A DNA stretch of 33,370 nt from assembly GCA_013297755.1 (NCBI GenBank), contig JAAFIH010000041.1, positions 1 to 33,370 of the forward strand, written 5' to 3'. Made by a program: the position numbers and the translations under genes. Source of the stretch: Cytophagales bacterium. GTDB lineage: Bacteria; Bacteroidota; Bacteroidia; Cytophagales; UBA9547. A model generated the notes under the pieces. It saw nothing but the letters and a program-made list of their open reading frames with translations. It had not been told where the DNA came from and did no database searches. This document shows positions 13,129-19,939 of the stretch, piece by piece. How positions within the stretch are numbered: position 1 is the stretch's first letter; the number at the start of each line of letters is the position of its first letter.

Positions 13129-13686
13129 ATGATAGATTTCAAAAGTTTAGCTTCGATTAATGGTATGTCTGGTTTATTTATCATCGTAAAGCCAACAAGG
13201 CTTGGCGTGATATTAGAAAGCCTTGATGCCAACAAAAGCAGATTAGTAATAAATAATAATAGTAGGGTTTCGATTTTAAAAGATATTTCAATCTACACTT
13301 CAGATGCCGATGGCAATATGCCATTAGAGAAGGTAATGAAATCAATCTTTGATATTTTTGAAAATAATATTAATGTAACCCCAAAATCACCAGATAACGA
13401 ACTTAGAGCTTTTCTAAAAAAAGCACTTCCAAATTATGACGAAAGTCGTGTATATGCGTCTGATATAAAAAAATTAGTAAGTTGGTATATAATTTTAATG
13501 CAAAACGACCCACTAATTTTTACAAACAAAGAAGCAGAACCAGAAGCTAAAATCGATTCTAGTGGAGACGAAAATTTACAAAATATTGAAACTGAAAAGA
13601 AACCTTCAAAATCAACTGAAACCAAATCAAAAGAATCAAAAGAAACTAAAGAAGTAAAACCAAAATCTACCAAATCACAAAAATAA
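13129..13686 (+). CDS. DUF5606 family protein
   Basis: A 185-residue protein whose first ~135 residues fit DUF5606, a conserved Bacteroidota family of unknown function. The N-terminal block (ASINGMSGLFIIV--TRLGVILESLD--KSRLVINNNSRVSILKDISIYT) looks like a small beta-barrel, followed by a helical part with LRAFLKKALPNYDESRVYASDIKKLVSWY. The last ~45 residues are a low-complexity Lys/Glu/Ser/Thr tail, probably disordered. There is no signal peptide or membrane segment, so it is cytoplasmic. It lies about 210 bp upstream of asnS on the same strand. The family function is unknown and nothing here adds to it. Confidence 0.85.
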   Translation: MIDFKSLASINGMSGLFIIVKPTRLGVILESLDANKSRLVINNNSRVSILKDISIYTSDADGNMPLEKVMKSIFDIFENNINVTPKSPDNELRAFLKKALPNYDESRVYASDIKKLVSWYIILMQNDPLIFTNKEAEPEAKIDSSGDENLQNIETEKKPSKSTETKSKESKETKEVKPKSTKSQK

Positions 13687-13897: not shown

Positions 13898-15283
13898 ATG
13901 CAAAGAATTAAAATTAAAGATTTGTTGAAATCAACAAATTATGGCTCAAAAGTATGTATAAAAGGATGGGTACGCTCCAAACGTGACAGCAAAACTGTGG
14001 CTTTTGTAGCCATTAACGATGGCTCTATCATACACAATATACAAGCAGTAATAGATACACCTAACTTTGAAGAAGACTATCTTAAAGATGTGCAAACGGG
14101 AGCCTGTGTAAAAATCGAAGGCACATTGGTACAATCTCAAGGCAAAGGGCAAAGTGTAGAAATACAAGCATCTAGCGTAGAAGTATATGGCAAAGCAGAT
14201 CCAGAAACTTTTCCTTTACAGAAAAAAGGACACAGTTTAGAATTTTTGAGAGAAATAGCTCACTTGAGGCCAAGAACAAACACTTTTGGTGCAATCTTAC
14301 GAATGCGTCATGCTATGGCTTTTGCAGTACATCAATTTTTTAACTCCAAAGGTTTTGTATATGTGCACACACCCATCATAACAGGGGCCGATTGCGAAGG
14401 TGCAGGCGAAATGTTTAGGGTTACAACCATGGATTTGAAAAAAATACCTATCGAAAATGGCCAAGTCAATTTTGAAAATGATTTTTTTGGAAAAGAAACA
14501 AGTCTGACCGTTTCTGGACAGCTCAATGGCGAATTGGCTGCAATGGCATTGGGCGAAATTTATACCTTTGGACCTACTTTTAGGGCCGAAAACTCTAATA
14601 CTTCACGTCATTTGGCCGAATTTTGGATGATAGAACCCGAAGTTGCATTTAATGAATTGGATGATAATATGAATTTGGCCGAAGATTTTTTGAAATATTT
14701 AGTAAAATATGCTCTCGAAAATTGTAGCGATGATTTAGAATTTCTTACCAATTTATATGACAAAGAATTGATAAATAAATTAAAATTTGTGGTAGAAAAT
14801 GATTTCATACGCCTAACCTATACAGAAGGAGTAGAAATTTTAAAGCATTGTGGACACAAATTTGAATATAAAGTAGATTGGGGTACAGATTTGCAATCAG
14901 AACACGAGCGTTATTTAGTTGAAAAACATTTTAAAAAACCCGTAATTCTTACAAATTATCCAAAAGAAATTAAGGCCTTTTATATGAAACAAGATGCCGA
15001 TGGCAAAACTGTAAGAGCAATGGATGTATTATTTCCTGGCATTGGCGAAATAATTGGCGGTTCTCAAAGAGAAGAAAATTATGAAAAATTGATAGCCAGA
15101 GTCAGAGAACTGGGAATGTCAGAAAAAGAACTTTGGTGGTACTTAGACACTAGAAAATTTGGCACTGCACCACATGCAGGTTTTGGACTTGGGTTTGAAC
15201 GACTGATGCTATTTGTAACAGGTATGGGAAACATAAGAGATGTAATTCCTTTTCCTAGAACACCAAAAAATGCCGAATTTTAG
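13898..15283 (+). CDS. asnS: Asparagine-tRNA ligase
   Basis: A class IIb aminoacyl-tRNA synthetase that activates asparagine with ATP and charges tRNA-Asn in the cytoplasm. The N-terminal OB-fold anticodon-binding domain is visible ([26 protein letters not shown]). The catalytic core has motif 2 ([25 protein letters not shown]) and motif 3 ([16 protein letters not shown]). [11 protein letters not shown] precedes the catalytic domain as in other AsnRS. I chose the ATG at 13898 (461 residues) over an in-frame TTG at 13880, because the protein then begins [10 protein letters not shown] and the length matches the usual ~466. A TAATTTTG box (13875-13882), resembling a Bacteroidota -7 element, lies just before this ATG and would give a very short leader. 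Confidence 0.96.
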
Positions 15284-15298
15284 CATTATTTTAGAAAA

Positions 15299-15375
15299 TA
15301 ATCAATAATCAATAATCAATTATCAATAATCAATAATCAATAATCAATAATCAATAATCAATAATCAATAATCAA
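15299..15375. repeat. Heptanucleotide tandem repeat, 11 copies of TAATCAA
   Basis: Eleven contiguous 7-bp units fill nearly all of the 94-bp gap between asnS and ppnP. Ten are identical and the fourth is TTATCAA. A partial twelfth unit (TAAT) merges into the ppnP ATG at 15378. Such short arrays change copy number by slippage. Because it lies directly before the start codon, it would alter leader length and ribosome access rather than reading frame. Confidence 0.95.
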
Positions 15376-15377
15376 TA

Positions 15378-15659
15378 ATGATACAAGTAAACGAATATTT
15401 TGGTGGCAAAGTAAAATCAATGGTTGTAAATGGGGTAGCAGGCAAAGAAACTGTGGGTGTGATGCTACCTGGCGAATACGAATTTGGAACCTCTCAAAAA
15501 GAAATAATGACAGTTATTACTGGTGCATTAGTTGTAAAATTGCCTGGAGAATCTAGCTGGGATGTTTTTCAAAAAGGCGAAGCCTTTGAAGTACCTGCCA
15601 ACCAAAAATTTCAGCTCAAAGTATATGTAGATACTGCTTATTTATGTCAATATTTATAA
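15378..15659 (+). CDS. ppnP: Pyrimidine/purine nucleoside phosphorylase PpnP
   Basis: A 93-residue cupin-fold protein of the PpnP (former DUF1255, YaiE) family, essentially the length of the E. coli enzyme. The family phosphorolyses many nucleosides to base plus ribose-1-phosphate in the cytoplasm. The sequence follows the family throughout: [24 protein letters not shown], then [10 protein letters not shown] and a C-terminal [13 protein letters not shown] segment. No ribosome-binding site is visible, since the heptamer array runs straight into the start codon. The dipeptidyl-peptidase gene begins 5 bp after the stop, implying co-transcription. Confidence 0.95.
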
Positions 15660-15664
15660 TATAA

Positions 15665-17956
15665 ATGTCGACTATTTCTTACAATCCAAAACAAACCATG
15701 TTTTGGATTGTTTGTTTATTTTTAACTATCCCATCTAAAGTATTTTCCCAAACAATAAGTCTTGAAGATATTTGGCTTAACAATACTTTTGCTCAAAAAT
15801 CTTTTGACGATTACCAATTTTCTACATCTGGCAATACATACTTCAAAACAATTTTAAATCCTAAAACGAACAAAACTGAACTTGCCTTATTTGATTTAAT
15901 AACAGATAAAAAAAGAGCTGTAAAATGTATTTTATCTGACTTTAAATTTAGTAATAAAGCGTTAGAAGTTGATGAGTATTTTTGGGATGATAATGAAACA
16001 AAATTACTCTTACAAACACAAACTGAATATATCTACAGAAGATCAACAAAGGCTGTTTATTATGTATACGACCTAGCCACCCAAAAACTTGAAGCCGTAG
16101 CTGATACCCAAAAACTAACCCAATGTGGATTTTCTCCTGATGCAAAAAAAATAGCATATACCAAAGACAACAACCTGTATATCAAAGACTTAGTTGCCAA
16201 AAAAACTAATTCAATTACTAAAAATGGCAAGTTAAACACCCTCATTCATGGTACTTCAGATTGGGTATATGAAGAAGAGTTTGAAATAGTAAAATGCTTT
16301 TTTTGGAATAAATTGAGTAATAAAATTGCTTTTCTAACATTTGACGAATCAGATGTTAAAACTTACAATATGCAAATATGGGGAAATGATTTATATCCAA
16401 TAGATTATATTTATAAATACCCAAAAGCTGGCGAAAAAAATGCTAAAGTTTCTGTTTCGGTGTATGATACTGAAACTAATACTACAAAATTGATTTTTGA
16501 TGGAAACAAAACTGACGCTTATGTTCCAAGACTTTCTTGGACCAACAACAACAATGTACTTTCAGTAACACATCTCAATAGAAATCAAGATTCGCTTACA
16601 ATAGTGCATTATAATGTAATAAATGATAGTACACATGCAATTTTAAACCTAACATCTGGTACTTATGTTTCAATCACTGATGATTTTTATTATCTAAAAA
16701 ACAATGATTTATTGCTATACAAATCCAATGATAACGAAAACAACATTCAAATTTTGGATTTGAAATCAAAAAAAATAACACCATTGACAAATGCTAAAAT
16801 CGGAAAATATTATGATAAATATCCTATACAGTATATTGTGGCTGTAGATGAGAAAAATAAAAAAATATACTATACCGCCAAAGATATACCACCATTGAAT
16901 CAACATTTATTTTCAATCAATTTTGATGGAACCAACAATAAAAAACTAACAACAATAGCTGGCGTAAATTCAGTCAATATTGATCCAACTTGCCAATATT
17001 TTTTGCTAACAAATAGTACTATCAAACAAGGTAATTCTTACTCATTGCACTATTGTTCAGATGGTAGCAAGATTAAAGATTTGGAATCAAATAATGAATT
17101 TAAAGAGAAAATTATTAAAAATAAATTTGTAAATCCTACTTTTCATTCTTTTACCTACATAGATTCAACTTCAAAAAGTACAAGTTCTGATGGGAATGTA
17201 GATTATAATTCTATTTTATTAAATTATTACTTAATCAAGCCCCATAATTTTGATTCAACCAAAAAATATCCAGTATTGGTTTATTTTTATGGTGGACCTG
17301 GGTCTCAAGAAGTGATTAATGAATGGCAAGGCAAAAATTATCTATGGTTTCAACATCTGCTCAGTCAGGGTTTTATAGTGGCTTGTTGTGATAATAGAGG
17401 TACTGGTGGACGTGGTATGGCTTTTCAACAATCGACAAACCATAAATTAGGTCAGTATGAAACTCAAGATCAGATAGCTTTTGGGCGATTTTTATGTTTA
17501 AAACCTTATGTTGACGCATCTAAAATGGCCACTTTTGGATGGAGCTTTGGCGGCTATCTCAGTCTTTTGACTATACTTAAAGGTAGTGATGTTTTTGGTG
17601 CAGCCATTGCTGTTGCTCCAGTTACGAGTTGGCGTTTTTATGATACTATTTATACAGAGCGATATTTGAAAAATCCTACTGATAATGCCAAAGGATACGA
17701 TGATAATTCTCCGCTAAACTTTGCAAATAATTTGAAAGGAAAATTACTATTAATACATGGCACTGGCGATGACAATGTACACTACCAAAACACTATTGCT
17801 ATGCAACAAGCACTGCAACACGCGGGCAAACATTTTGAAACATACACCTACCCAGACAAATCTCATGGAATAAGTGGTGGCAAAACAAGATTTCACCTTT
17901 ACCAAAAGATGACAAATTTTTTATTAGATTTTGCAAAAAATAAATCAAATAATTGA
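15665..17956 (+). CDS. Dipeptidyl peptidase IV (S9B family prolyl peptidase)
   Basis: A 763-residue exported serine peptidase that removes X-Pro or X-Ala dipeptides from peptide N-termini. The signal peptide core is MFWIVCLFLTIPSKVFSQ; translation might begin at that Met (residue 12). An N-terminal beta-propeller carries DWVYEEEFE, whose Glu204/Glu205 match the N-terminus-binding glutamates of human DPP4. The C-terminal alpha/beta-hydrolase domain has the triad Ser627 (GWSFGGY), Asp702 (HGTGDDNVH) and His734 (DKSHGI), with the same 32-residue Asp-His spacing as human DPP4. It probably acts in the periplasm to process peptides. Last gene of the asnS-ppnP-DPP run; no clear terminator follows. 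Confidence 0.95.
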   Translation: MSTISYNPKQTMFWIVCLFLTIPSKVFSQTISLEDIWLNNTFAQKSFDDYQFSTSGNTYFKTILNPKTNKTELALFDLITDKKRAVKCILSDFKFSNKALEVDEYFWDDNETKLLLQTQTEYIYRRSTKAVYYVYDLATQKLEAVADTQKLTQCGFSPDAKKIAYTKDNNLYIKDLVAKKTNSITKNGKLNTLIHGTSDWVYEEEFEIVKCFFWNKLSNKIAFLTFDESDVKTYNMQIWGNDLYPIDYIYKYPKAGEKNAKVSVSVYDTETNTTKLIFDGNKTDAYVPRLSWTNNNNVLSVTHLNRNQDSLTIVHYNVINDSTHAILNLTSGTYVSITDDFYYLKNNDLLLYKSNDNENNIQILDLKSKKITPLTNAKIGKYYDKYPIQYIVAVDEKNKKIYYTAKDIPPLNQHLFSINFDGTNNKKLTTIAGVNSVNIDPTCQYFLLTNSTIKQGNSYSLHYCSDGSKIKDLESNNEFKEKIIKNKFVNPTFHSFTYIDSTSKSTSSDGNVDYNSILLNYYLIKPHNFDSTKKYPVLVYFYGGPGSQEVINEWQGKNYLWFQHLLSQGFIVACCDNRGTGGRGMAFQQSTNHKLGQYETQDQIAFGRFLCLKPYVDASKMATFGWSFGGYLSLLTILKGSDVFGAAIAVAPVTSWRFYDTIYTERYLKNPTDNAKGYDDNSPLNFANNLKGKLLLIHGTGDDNVHYQNTIAMQQALQHAGKHFETYTYPDKSHGISGGKTRFHLYQKMTNFLLDFAKNKSNN

Positions 17957-18430: not shown

Positions 18431-19939
18431 TTATATTACATTTGCAATTTCTTTCAATTTTTGAATAACATAAAGTGCTGAAATTTTAAATTCTTCTTTA
18501 GCAATTTTCTCATCTTCAATAATCCATTGTTTAACTTCGTTTAAAAGATTTTTCTTAGCTTCTCTTTTAATTTGTTTATTTTGTTCAGTTAATATAACAT
18601 TTACTTTGTTTTTAAATCTAGGTGGATAATAACTTTCAAAATCATGTTCTGTAAATTGCGAAAAATTTTTTTCATTCCATCCTTTTTTTATATAATTAGA
18701 TTTAAGAGATTGAATAATTTTTTCTTCTTCAACACCTTCATCAATAATAACCCAAACTTTATTTTTATATAAAGGCTCTAAATGTAAAAAAACAAAAAGT
18801 CTATTAAAATCATCGAATTTGGGTATTATTTGAGATAGGGAATTTGCTGAAAATGTCCTCAATTTATCTTTTAATTTTGGAACGTACCATTTAATAAACC
18901 ATTCTCTAATTAGTACTTCTGCTGATGATTCTTCTAAAAATAACCAAGCAGACCATAGTCCAAAATCATAAAATTCATATCCCAAATTCTCCAATATTAC
19001 TTTTCTGTCTTCTAAAGTATTTGGCACTTCTGTTAATTTTGAAATGAATAAATTTGGTCTTAATGTGTCAGTTAATTCTGAAGTAATATTAAATATTTTA
19101 GATGTATTATTACCTCCTAGATATTTCATAACAATATTTGAATGGGTTGAAATGAAAAATTGATTAGTACTTGATTTTTCTATAATGAAATTAAGTAATG
19201 ATTTTAACGCAGTTGGGTGAATATCATTTTCTGGTTCTTCTATTAAAAATATTTTATTTTCTGCTACACATAAATCTGTTATTAGTCCTATAATATTTGT
19301 AACTCCTTCACCCATTGCTGTTAAAGGAATATGTTCTTGATTATGAACAAAATATACTCCTTTCTTACCATTTGTGCTTGCAAGTGTAGATATTTCAAAA
19401 CCTAATATATCATTACATGCTTTTATATATTGTTTATTTCCAGGTTGAAATTGAGGAGTAACTAATCTATCAATTTTGGAAAATAAGTTTATAAAATTAC
19501 CTGATACAGCATTTGTATTTTGTTCGTTTATTTGGTCATTAAAATTTATGGATTTCCTTTTTGAAAGATAAGGAAAAATTAAATTATGTGGTTCTTTTTC
19601 GGGAAATGGTTGAGGATTGTGAATATAATTACCAATAGGATTAAATATTTTTCGTTCATTAGTTGTAGGATTAAAAACAAAGGTTGAATTTCTTTCTAGA
19701 ATGCCAACTTCATAGTACATTCCTTCTATGTACATTTTAACTTCACCAGTTTGTTCTCCAATTGTAATGTCTGAATGTACTAATATTCCTTGTCTTTGTA
19801 AAGTAAAGATGCAATTTAATAAAGTAGACTTTCCTGAATTATTTGCACCAATAAAAACATTTATTGAAGCAGAAAAATTTGTCTTCTCCATAGATTTAAA
19901 ACCTCTAATATTAGTTAACTCAATGGCTTTTATTTTCAT
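18431..19939 (-). CDS. OLD-like AAA ATPase with degenerate TOPRIM-like C-terminus
   Basis: A 502-residue ABC-type ATPase of the OLD/RecF-like group. Residues 1-30 read MKIKAIELTNIRGFKS, followed by Walker A GANNSGKST (31-39). A signature-like MGEG lies at 209-212, Walker B IFLIEEPEND at 230-239, and the switch His266 in FFISTHSN. Beyond residue 330, WLFLEESSAEVLI (332-344) and VWVIIDEG (to about 402) resemble the Glu and Asp strands of a TOPRIM nuclease, but the usual DxD is not preserved. OLD-family proteins act on DNA, and several are anti-phage effectors, alone or with a partner (Gabija, PARIS, some retrons). No partner gene is present here. The gene sits between 29-30 bp direct repeats beside the rpoB terminator, suggesting acquisition. 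Defence is inference. Confidence 0.85.
   Translation of the reverse strand: MKIKAIELTNIRGFKSMEKTNFSASINVFIGANNSGKSTLLNCIFTLQRQGILVHSDITIGEQTGEVKMYIEGMYYEVGILERNSTFVFNPTTNERKIFNPIGNYIHNPQPFPEKEPHNLIFPYLSKRKSINFNDQINEQNTNAVSGNFINLFSKIDRLVTPQFQPGNKQYIKACNDILGFEISTLASTNGKKGVYFVHNQEHIPLTAMGEGVTNIIGLITDLCVAENKIFLIEEPENDIHPTALKSLLNFIIEKSSTNQFFISTHSNIVMKYLGGNNTSKIFNITSELTDTLRPNLFISKLTEVPNTLEDRKVILENLGYEFYDFGLWSAWLFLEESSAEVLIREWFIKWYVPKLKDKLRTFSANSLSQIIPKFDDFNRLFVFLHLEPLYKNKVWVIIDEGVEEEKIIQSLKSNYIKKGWNEKNFSQFTEHDFESYYPPRFKNKVNVILTEQNKQIKREAKKNLLNEVKQWIIEDEKIAKEEFKISALYVIQKLKEIANVI

Follow-up and report, generated by a model that had tools for sequence, protein, structure and literature searches.

Dispersed arrays of tandem seven-base units are already known, if only piecemeal. 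They have so far been explained by quadruplexes, by RNA-binding regulators or by the behaviour of the polymerase. Mazel and Elhai reportedly worked on repeats in cyanobacteria. One of the studies we draw on here, PMC4692102, is presumably Rehm et al. 2015. It describes arrays of GGGAATC in Xanthomonas and of GGGGA(C/T)T in Nostoc, in which the repeat strand reads outward from either end of an ORF (PMC4692102).

Arrays of another heptamer, TAACTGA, occur in Beggiatoaceae, Cyanobacteria and Bacteroidetes. They read forward before start codons, and one set lies reversed directly behind a stop codon (MacGregor 2015, PMC4679880). The same paper recounts the finding of Mrazek et al. 2007 that long simple sequence repeats with 7-nt units are over-represented. 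In Coxiella burnetii the intervening sequence (IVS) of the 23S rRNA carries an S23p ORF, terminal inverted repeats and, at its 5' end, tandem heptamers in two or three copies depending on the strain (PMC4990558). Heptamer-derived satellites in Bacteria are mentioned in PMC6749651. The protein family PF05635, which matters below, resembles Avd according to a paper on diversity-generating retroelements (PMC10053308).

A text search of the open-licence literature found no paper that mentions TAATCAA together with the word repeat. Of PMC10053308, PMC4990558, PMC4692102 and PMC4679880, only PMC4990558 brings PF05635 or S23 together with heptamers; an earlier description is possible.

Here we analyse an array of TAATCAA units that abuts ppnP, a nucleoside phosphorylase gene. 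Most likely it is dispersed, prone to slippage and incidental to ppnP, a heptamer array of the type found at the ends of PF05635 elements.

Results

The array in front of ppnP

The window, that is, the whole stretch of 33,370 nucleotides that was analysed, contains the following features around the array.

13129..13686, forward strand: DUF5606/DUF6852 gene
13898..15283, forward strand: asnS, asparaginyl-tRNA synthetase, counted from the first ATG (the ORF opens at TTG 13880)
15297..15379, forward strand: tandem tract of period 7 with 11.9 copies, found by Tandem Repeats Finder, most of the asnS-ppnP spacer
15299..15375, forward strand: eleven TAATCAA units; the other strand reads TTGATTA, bears the G and runs outward from the ppnP start
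15320..15326, forward strand: variant unit TTATCAA, the fourth
15376..15380, forward strand: partial twelfth unit TAAT, entering the ppnP ATG (15378-15380)
15378..15659, forward strand: ppnP, pyrimidine/purine nucleoside phosphorylase, Pfam match to PF06865 (E 2e-35)
15665..17956, forward strand: dipeptidyl peptidase IV (DPP IV) gene, 5 nt behind ppnP

The preliminary description of this DNA reported a near-perfect array of eleven 7-bp units that replaces the normal leader of ppnP, with a partial last unit at the ATG. This picture is accurate. The 77 nt from 15299 to 15375 consist of 11 heptamers; ten read TAATCAA, the other TTATCAA. For 15297-15379, Tandem Repeats Finder reports a period of 7, 97% matches and a score of 159, the best in the window (the next is 64), and no other tract of period 7 is present in the window. 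A four-copy pattern with at most three mismatches matches the window 10 times, always within the array, and has no match in 100 dinucleotide-preserving shuffles of the window. With head-to-tail 7-nt units and a length beyond chance, the array is a long simple sequence repeat of the heptanucleotide type.

Behind the last full unit the sequence reads TAATG, so that the A and T with which the start codon at 15378 opens belong to the partial twelfth unit. The asnS stop (15283) lies 13 nt before the tract, and positions 15297-15377 take up most of the 94-nt spacer between asnS and ppnP. Because the array fills nearly the whole spacer, it is fair to say that it replaces the leader.

The genome that holds the array (G000) comprises 4.24 Mb in 70 contigs. 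We compare it to two sister species of the same genus (G001 and G002), with one genome per species. The ppnP orthologues of G001 and G002 are 91 and 94% identical and start at the same codon; together with the PF06865 match this identifies the start at 15378 as genuine. Neither of the two orthologues has an array.

The DUF5606/DUF6852 gene adjoins asnS in all three species, upstream in G000 and G002 and downstream in G001. The ppnP gene is followed by the DPP IV gene in G002 as well, and this adjacency is absent in G001. asnS is not adjacent to ppnP in either sister species, and in G001 asnS itself has an array directly upstream. We considered whether the array marks a rearrangement junction, as asnS and ppnP are apart in both sister species. 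However, the DNA behind asnS differs in all three species, hence the separation carries little weight and we rejected this idea. The DPP IV gene is followed, on the opposite strand, by an AAA_15/AAA_21 ATPase gene (18431-19939), which we take to be OLD-like.

Dispersal and the dominance of period seven

TAATCAA arrays are scattered through the genome. The preliminary description suggested a search for them, and this search yields 312 two-copy matches in G000 (117 and 195 on the two strands), compared to none for the reversed control. The window and the stretches around array matches cover 276 of the 312. In these and in two further stretches we mapped 44 TAATCAA tracts. None of the 44 tracts lies inside a called ORF; a single two-copy match lies inside an ORF of 915 aa. 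The neighbouring genes, judged by eye from their translations, are ordinary and varied. The ppnP array thus shares with the oriented gene-edge arrays that there are many dispersed copies, mainly in non-coding DNA.

A three-copy TAATCAA pattern is found in four of 59 genomes: 242 times in G000 itself, 20 times in G002 and twice each in G011 and G036. The reversed three-copy control unexpectedly matched in genomes of the same genus, 10 times in G001 and 69 times in G002. These matches come from arrays of another heptamer, TAATAAC (= TAACTAA).

When the array regions of G000 are scanned for units of 4-14 nt with at least 18 periodic matches, 57 tracts have period 7; periods 8, 12 and 14 account for 1, 1 and 2 tracts, and the remaining periods for none. 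In contrast, 80 Bacteroidota loci not chosen for repeats (728 kb) contain a single period-7 tract and two tracts of period 11. The heptamers of G000 are many (TAATCAA, TAACTTA, GTTAATG, AATTGAG, TAATGTG and others), and often several of them share a spacer. Longer tandem units are present too, for example of 22 and 40 nt, such as a near-perfect 40-nt unit repeated four times at L142:2350-2507.

Some blocks are composite: C-rich hairpin modules alternate with heptamer arrays (L134:1-1000, L124:2900-4150, L135:2791-3401 and L118:2030-2180). Many of these modules end in CACGAATGCACGAATTT, a module end that is also found four times in G001 and once in G033. At L133:3260-3616 an ORF beside an array resembles, on visual inspection, the C-terminal portion of a REP-associated tyrosine transposase, without a Pfam match. 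At L168:1932-2774 a gene for a PD-(D/E)XK nuclease family transposase (PF12784) lies 20 nt from a tract with TAATCAA units.

Several contigs end in heptamer arrays or a few bases from them, in G000 (C1, C54 and C60) and in G002 (C45, C50, C69, C75, C77, C140, C200 and C266). Hence the number and length of arrays may be underestimated in these two draft genomes.

Polarity at gene edges

TAATCAA tracts abut genes with one particular end. On the TAATCAA strand, 24 of 43 tracts have their 3' end no further than 10 nt from a gene edge; for the 5' end this holds in 1 of 36. Counted per locus, the 3' end abuts a gene edge in 24 of 34. Both kinds of edge are used: 17 of the 24 abutting ends are at stops (the gene is on the other strand) and 7 are at starts (same strand).

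The same rule can be stated for any unit via the G-richer strand. In G000, 41 of 70 tracts have the beginning of this strand no more than 15 nt from a start or stop codon, and 3 of 61 have its end there. The rule also applies to the G000 tracts without two-copy TAATCAA (16/30 begin at a gene edge, 1/28 end there) and to the tracts of the two sister species (24/38 versus 4/34). Tracts with balanced or too few G/C, duplicates and tracts inside ORFs were omitted from this count. The asymmetry is absent from 24 tracts of other families (12/23 versus 10/22), which mostly lie in short spacers next to PF05635 genes. Thus the tracts of G000 and its sister species have the repeat strand of the Xanthomonas, Nostoc and Beggiatoaceae type, which reads outward within 50 nt of either gene edge, and those of the other families do not.

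The ppnP copy abuts a start, yet its other end is only 13 nt from asnS. With both ends near genes, it is a weak example of the polarity.

We also asked if ORF calling could create the polarity, and rejected this: an ORF that runs into an array stops in either direction, which cannot produce an asymmetry. At one slot the gene before the array (a 270-aa ORF) ends at the same codon position in three species.

Starts and stops are treated alike, which argues for a cause at the DNA level and against a leader that regulates ppnP. Transcripts would contain (UAAUCAA)n at starts and (UUGAUUA)n at stops, so that a DNA-level cause is the simplest reading of the polarity. Selection may purge array growth into coding sequence, in which case arrays would stop at gene edges.

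Changes between species

Elsewhere in these genomes, orthologous slots differ in both the number and the sequence of their units. At a locus shared by G001 and G002 (L164 and L154), within DNA that is 93-95% identical, a TAACTAA tract measures 64 nt in G001 and 78 nt in G002, a difference of two units. Changes in 7-nt steps, as proposed for the ppnP array, therefore do occur in this class of repeats, as judged from the TAACTAA tract.

A second slot lies between the same two genes in all three species (L136:4305-8546, L243 and L244); in each of them, arrays directly adjoin the same start codon on one side and the same stop codon on the other. At the start edge we find GTTAATG (G000), GTTAATT (G002) and AATTGAG (G001). 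The stop edge carries ATTAACA (= AATTAAC) in both G000 and G002, and ATTCTCA in G001. In every species the two arrays form an inverted pair (with one base different in G000). A gene is found between the arrays in G000 and G002 and is absent in G001. By its Pfam match this gene belongs to PF05635, the 23S rRNA intervening-sequence protein family. The spacer next to this slot has a TAATCAA array in G000 only.

Arrays beside PF05635 genes

Heptamer arrays, mostly inverted, are strongly associated with PF05635 genes in several phyla. In the genomes of the order, we examined 50 of the 108 PF05635 matches listed. Thirty of these were the matches for which the search gave loci, and twenty were chosen by hand (the remaining matches of G000 and G001, plus some of G011, G018, G028 and G036). 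Of the 50 genes, 23 have a heptamer tract no more than 150 nt away on any side, compared to 12 of 74 control genes, and 12 have tracts on both sides, compared to 1 of 74. Outside the genus the proportions are 14/39 versus 4/51 for any side and 5/39 versus 0/51 for both sides. With the threshold lowered slightly, there are 15 two-sided pairs, 12 inverted and 3 direct. The G-strand, at this threshold, points toward the PF05635 gene in 34 tracts and away from it in 9, and one tract is balanced.

For an independent test we used all 25 plasmid records with a tblastn match (L296-L320, for example L309:1439-1864), which amount to fewer than 25 independent cases because some loci are near copies (L301, L302 and L304; L313-L315). 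The plasmids come from Cyanobacteriota, Bacteroidota, Bacillota, Spirochaetota and Chloroflexota, and nine of nine proteins checked are PF05635. Control ORFs, 178 in total, were taken from four of the 25 plasmids (three Nostoc and one Bernardetia). A tract lies within 150 nt of 22 of the 25 PF05635 genes and of 6 of the 178 control ORFs. Here, and in the counts for the order above, a tract this close to a PF05635 gene did not count for a control gene, which lowers the control figures. Both sides are occupied at 18 of the 25 loci and at none of the 178 control ORFs. The lower threshold raises these proportions to 24/25 versus 12/178 (any side) and 20/25 versus 0/178 (both sides). The Bacillota locus, L298, needs the lower threshold to show a tract, and L312 lacks one at either threshold.

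The 20 two-sided plasmid pairs of the lower threshold divide into 14 inverted, 5 direct and 1 tied. The near tracts of the higher threshold, 41 in total, are all of period 7, with no other period between 4 and 12 represented; away from PF05635 the plasmid loci have 13 tracts of period 7 and 1 of period 5. The arrays that bracket PF05635 genes use many different units. The G-strand points toward the gene in 23 tracts, away from it in 17 and is balanced in 9. This lack of a clear preference argues against a single polarity rule for all arrays.

Some of the plasmid genes are found among defence genes: between cas2 and cas1 (L307 and L308), beside cas1 (L317), between the genes for a restriction subunit S and HsdR (L298), and between DrmD and an MmeI-like gene (L314).

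The ppnP locus itself has a single array, with no ORF between asnS and ppnP, and thus neither a PF05635 ORF between arrays nor an inverted partner array; PF05635 ORFs between arrays do occur at other G000 loci. The majority of the heptamer tracts mapped in G000 lack a neighbouring PF05635 gene. Of the 7 PF05635 genes of G000 among the matches listed, none has a TAATCAA tract within 150 nt. Hence the tie between the solo ppnP array and PF05635 is one that we infer from the class of arrays, and not from the ppnP copy.

Discussion

Alternative explanations

Pure replication slippage needs no element at all. The polymerase would favour 7 nt, arrays would grow from local chance seeds in non-coding DNA, and PF05635 would merely land nearby. 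The variation of units from locus to locus and the shifts of copy number by whole units suit this explanation, and the account of Mrazek et al. given by MacGregor (PMC4679880) also counts in its favour. Yet slippage alone accounts neither for the dispersal of one unit to dozens of loci, nor for the polarity at gene edges, nor for the inverted pairs around PF05635 at 14 of 20 two-sided plasmid loci. We therefore consider it rather unlikely as the whole explanation.

The preliminary description suggested that changes in the number of units could tune the expression of ppnP and the DPP IV gene. On this view the array would be a phase-variable or tuning leader that sets their translation. The position directly against the ppnP ATG invites this idea, and changes of length by whole units are known in the class of heptamer arrays. 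However, TAATCAA is present at dozens of unrelated loci, its edge-abutting tracts are mostly at stops, and ppnP lacks an array in both sister species.

The leader does not look like a switch either. TAA is present in every frame of the array before the ATG, so the number of units cannot alter translational coupling by frame. The leader RNA folds with -5.8 kcal/mol, no better than shuffles (z 0.24), and five sources of known RNA families gave no match at gathering thresholds. Between 15000 and 15800 there are 7 sigma-70-like sites on both strands together, compared to 3.8 (sd 2.2) in shuffles. One of them is on the ppnP strand (15280-15309), and four on the other strand are in or at the array. 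We found no convincing promoter for ppnP in the asnS-ppnP spacer, and no match in 14901-15385 to a Bacteroidota-type promoter motif. With stops in all frames, an unstructured leader and no convincing promoter, the gain or loss of units has no obvious on/off effect. At ppnP we see neither the frame shift nor the altered promoter spacing through which unit changes act in a phase-variable contingency locus. The effect of the array on ppnP is probably small: the leader is A/T-rich, lacks structure and contains stops in all three frames. A tuning leader is thus improbable.

The preliminary description also named an observation that would speak against its reading: arrays scattered randomly in intergenic DNA with no link to start codons. 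The scatter in intergenic DNA is there. A link to gene edges is there as well, but it is general and not specific to starts.

Alternatively, the arrays could be binding sites for an RNA-binding regulator of many genes, as MacGregor proposed for TAACTGA. Arrays do lie near the starts of many genes. But one protein would hardly see both (UAAUCAA)n at starts and (UUGAUUA)n at stops, arrays on the two sides obey the same DNA polarity, and the same start edge holds different units in three species. We regard such a regulator as very improbable.

An assembly artefact can be dismissed almost entirely: several contigs do end inside arrays, and long arrays may be cut short or collapsed, but the ppnP array is located within a contig and has an ordinary gene on either side, and heptamer arrays recur at syntenic slots in separate genomes.

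A dispersed array at the edge of ppnP

We think it quite probable that the ppnP array is one member of a genome-wide family of intergenic heptamer arrays, which often abut gene edges, are polar and drift by whole units. Its effect on ppnP would be small and its origin linked to PF05635. Arrays like it may be the ends of PF05635 intervening-type elements or derivatives of such elements without cargo. Alternatively, they may be products of the same array-forming process that makes the element ends. The length of the ppnP array would drift through gain and loss of whole units.

A wider reading is possible, and we offer it tentatively. The excess of seven-base repeats in bacteria may be the footprint of one element family, the PF05635 (Avd-relative) intervening elements with mostly inverted 7-nt array ends. 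In Bacteroidota, Cyanobacteriota, Spirochaetota, Chloroflexota and others, the elements and their cargo-less arrays would have invaded gene edges, perhaps through templated addition of 7-nt units in a telomere-like manner. The ppnP array would be one solo end. To our knowledge, PF05635 proteins have no known DNA-joining activity.

The result is sobering for ppnP, whose leader is one array among dozens like it. For heptamer arrays in general, the start-and-stop polarity in A/T-rich units argues against quadruplexes and RNA-binding regulators as general causes. The association with PF05635 across several phyla provides a concrete candidate protein for the question "why seven bases".

Comparison with known systems

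The repeats of Mrazek et al. 2007 resemble the ppnP array in unit length and over-representation; the account of them within PMC4679880 mentions neither gene-edge polarity nor a link to PF05635.

The heptamers of the Coxiella burnetii IVS are tandem too; they lie at the end of that element and differ in copy number by strain (PMC4990558). Unlike that IVS, which resides in the 23S rRNA, carries an ORF and has terminal inverted repeats, the ppnP array is solo and intergenic.

The arrays of Xanthomonas and Nostoc also have a unit of 7, are dispersed, intergenic and close to ORFs, read outward from start or stop, and adjoin genes mainly of general metabolism or unknown function (PMC4692102). Their units, however, are G-rich and have been interpreted as G-quadruplexes. 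The unit TTGATTA contains a single G and none of the runs of at least three G that a G-quadruplex heptamer requires. Hence the geometry that the arrays have in common cannot stem from quadruplexes.

The TAACTGA arrays share an A/T-rich heptamer with the same orientation before starts and one reported reversed case behind a stop (PMC4679880). As in G000, further heptamers occur in the same spacers and contigs end in repeats. In contrast to the TAACTGA arrays, the unit here is TAATCAA, three changes away in register, and placement at stops outnumbers placement at starts. Furthermore, in the genus that hosts the ppnP array the polarity holds for many units.
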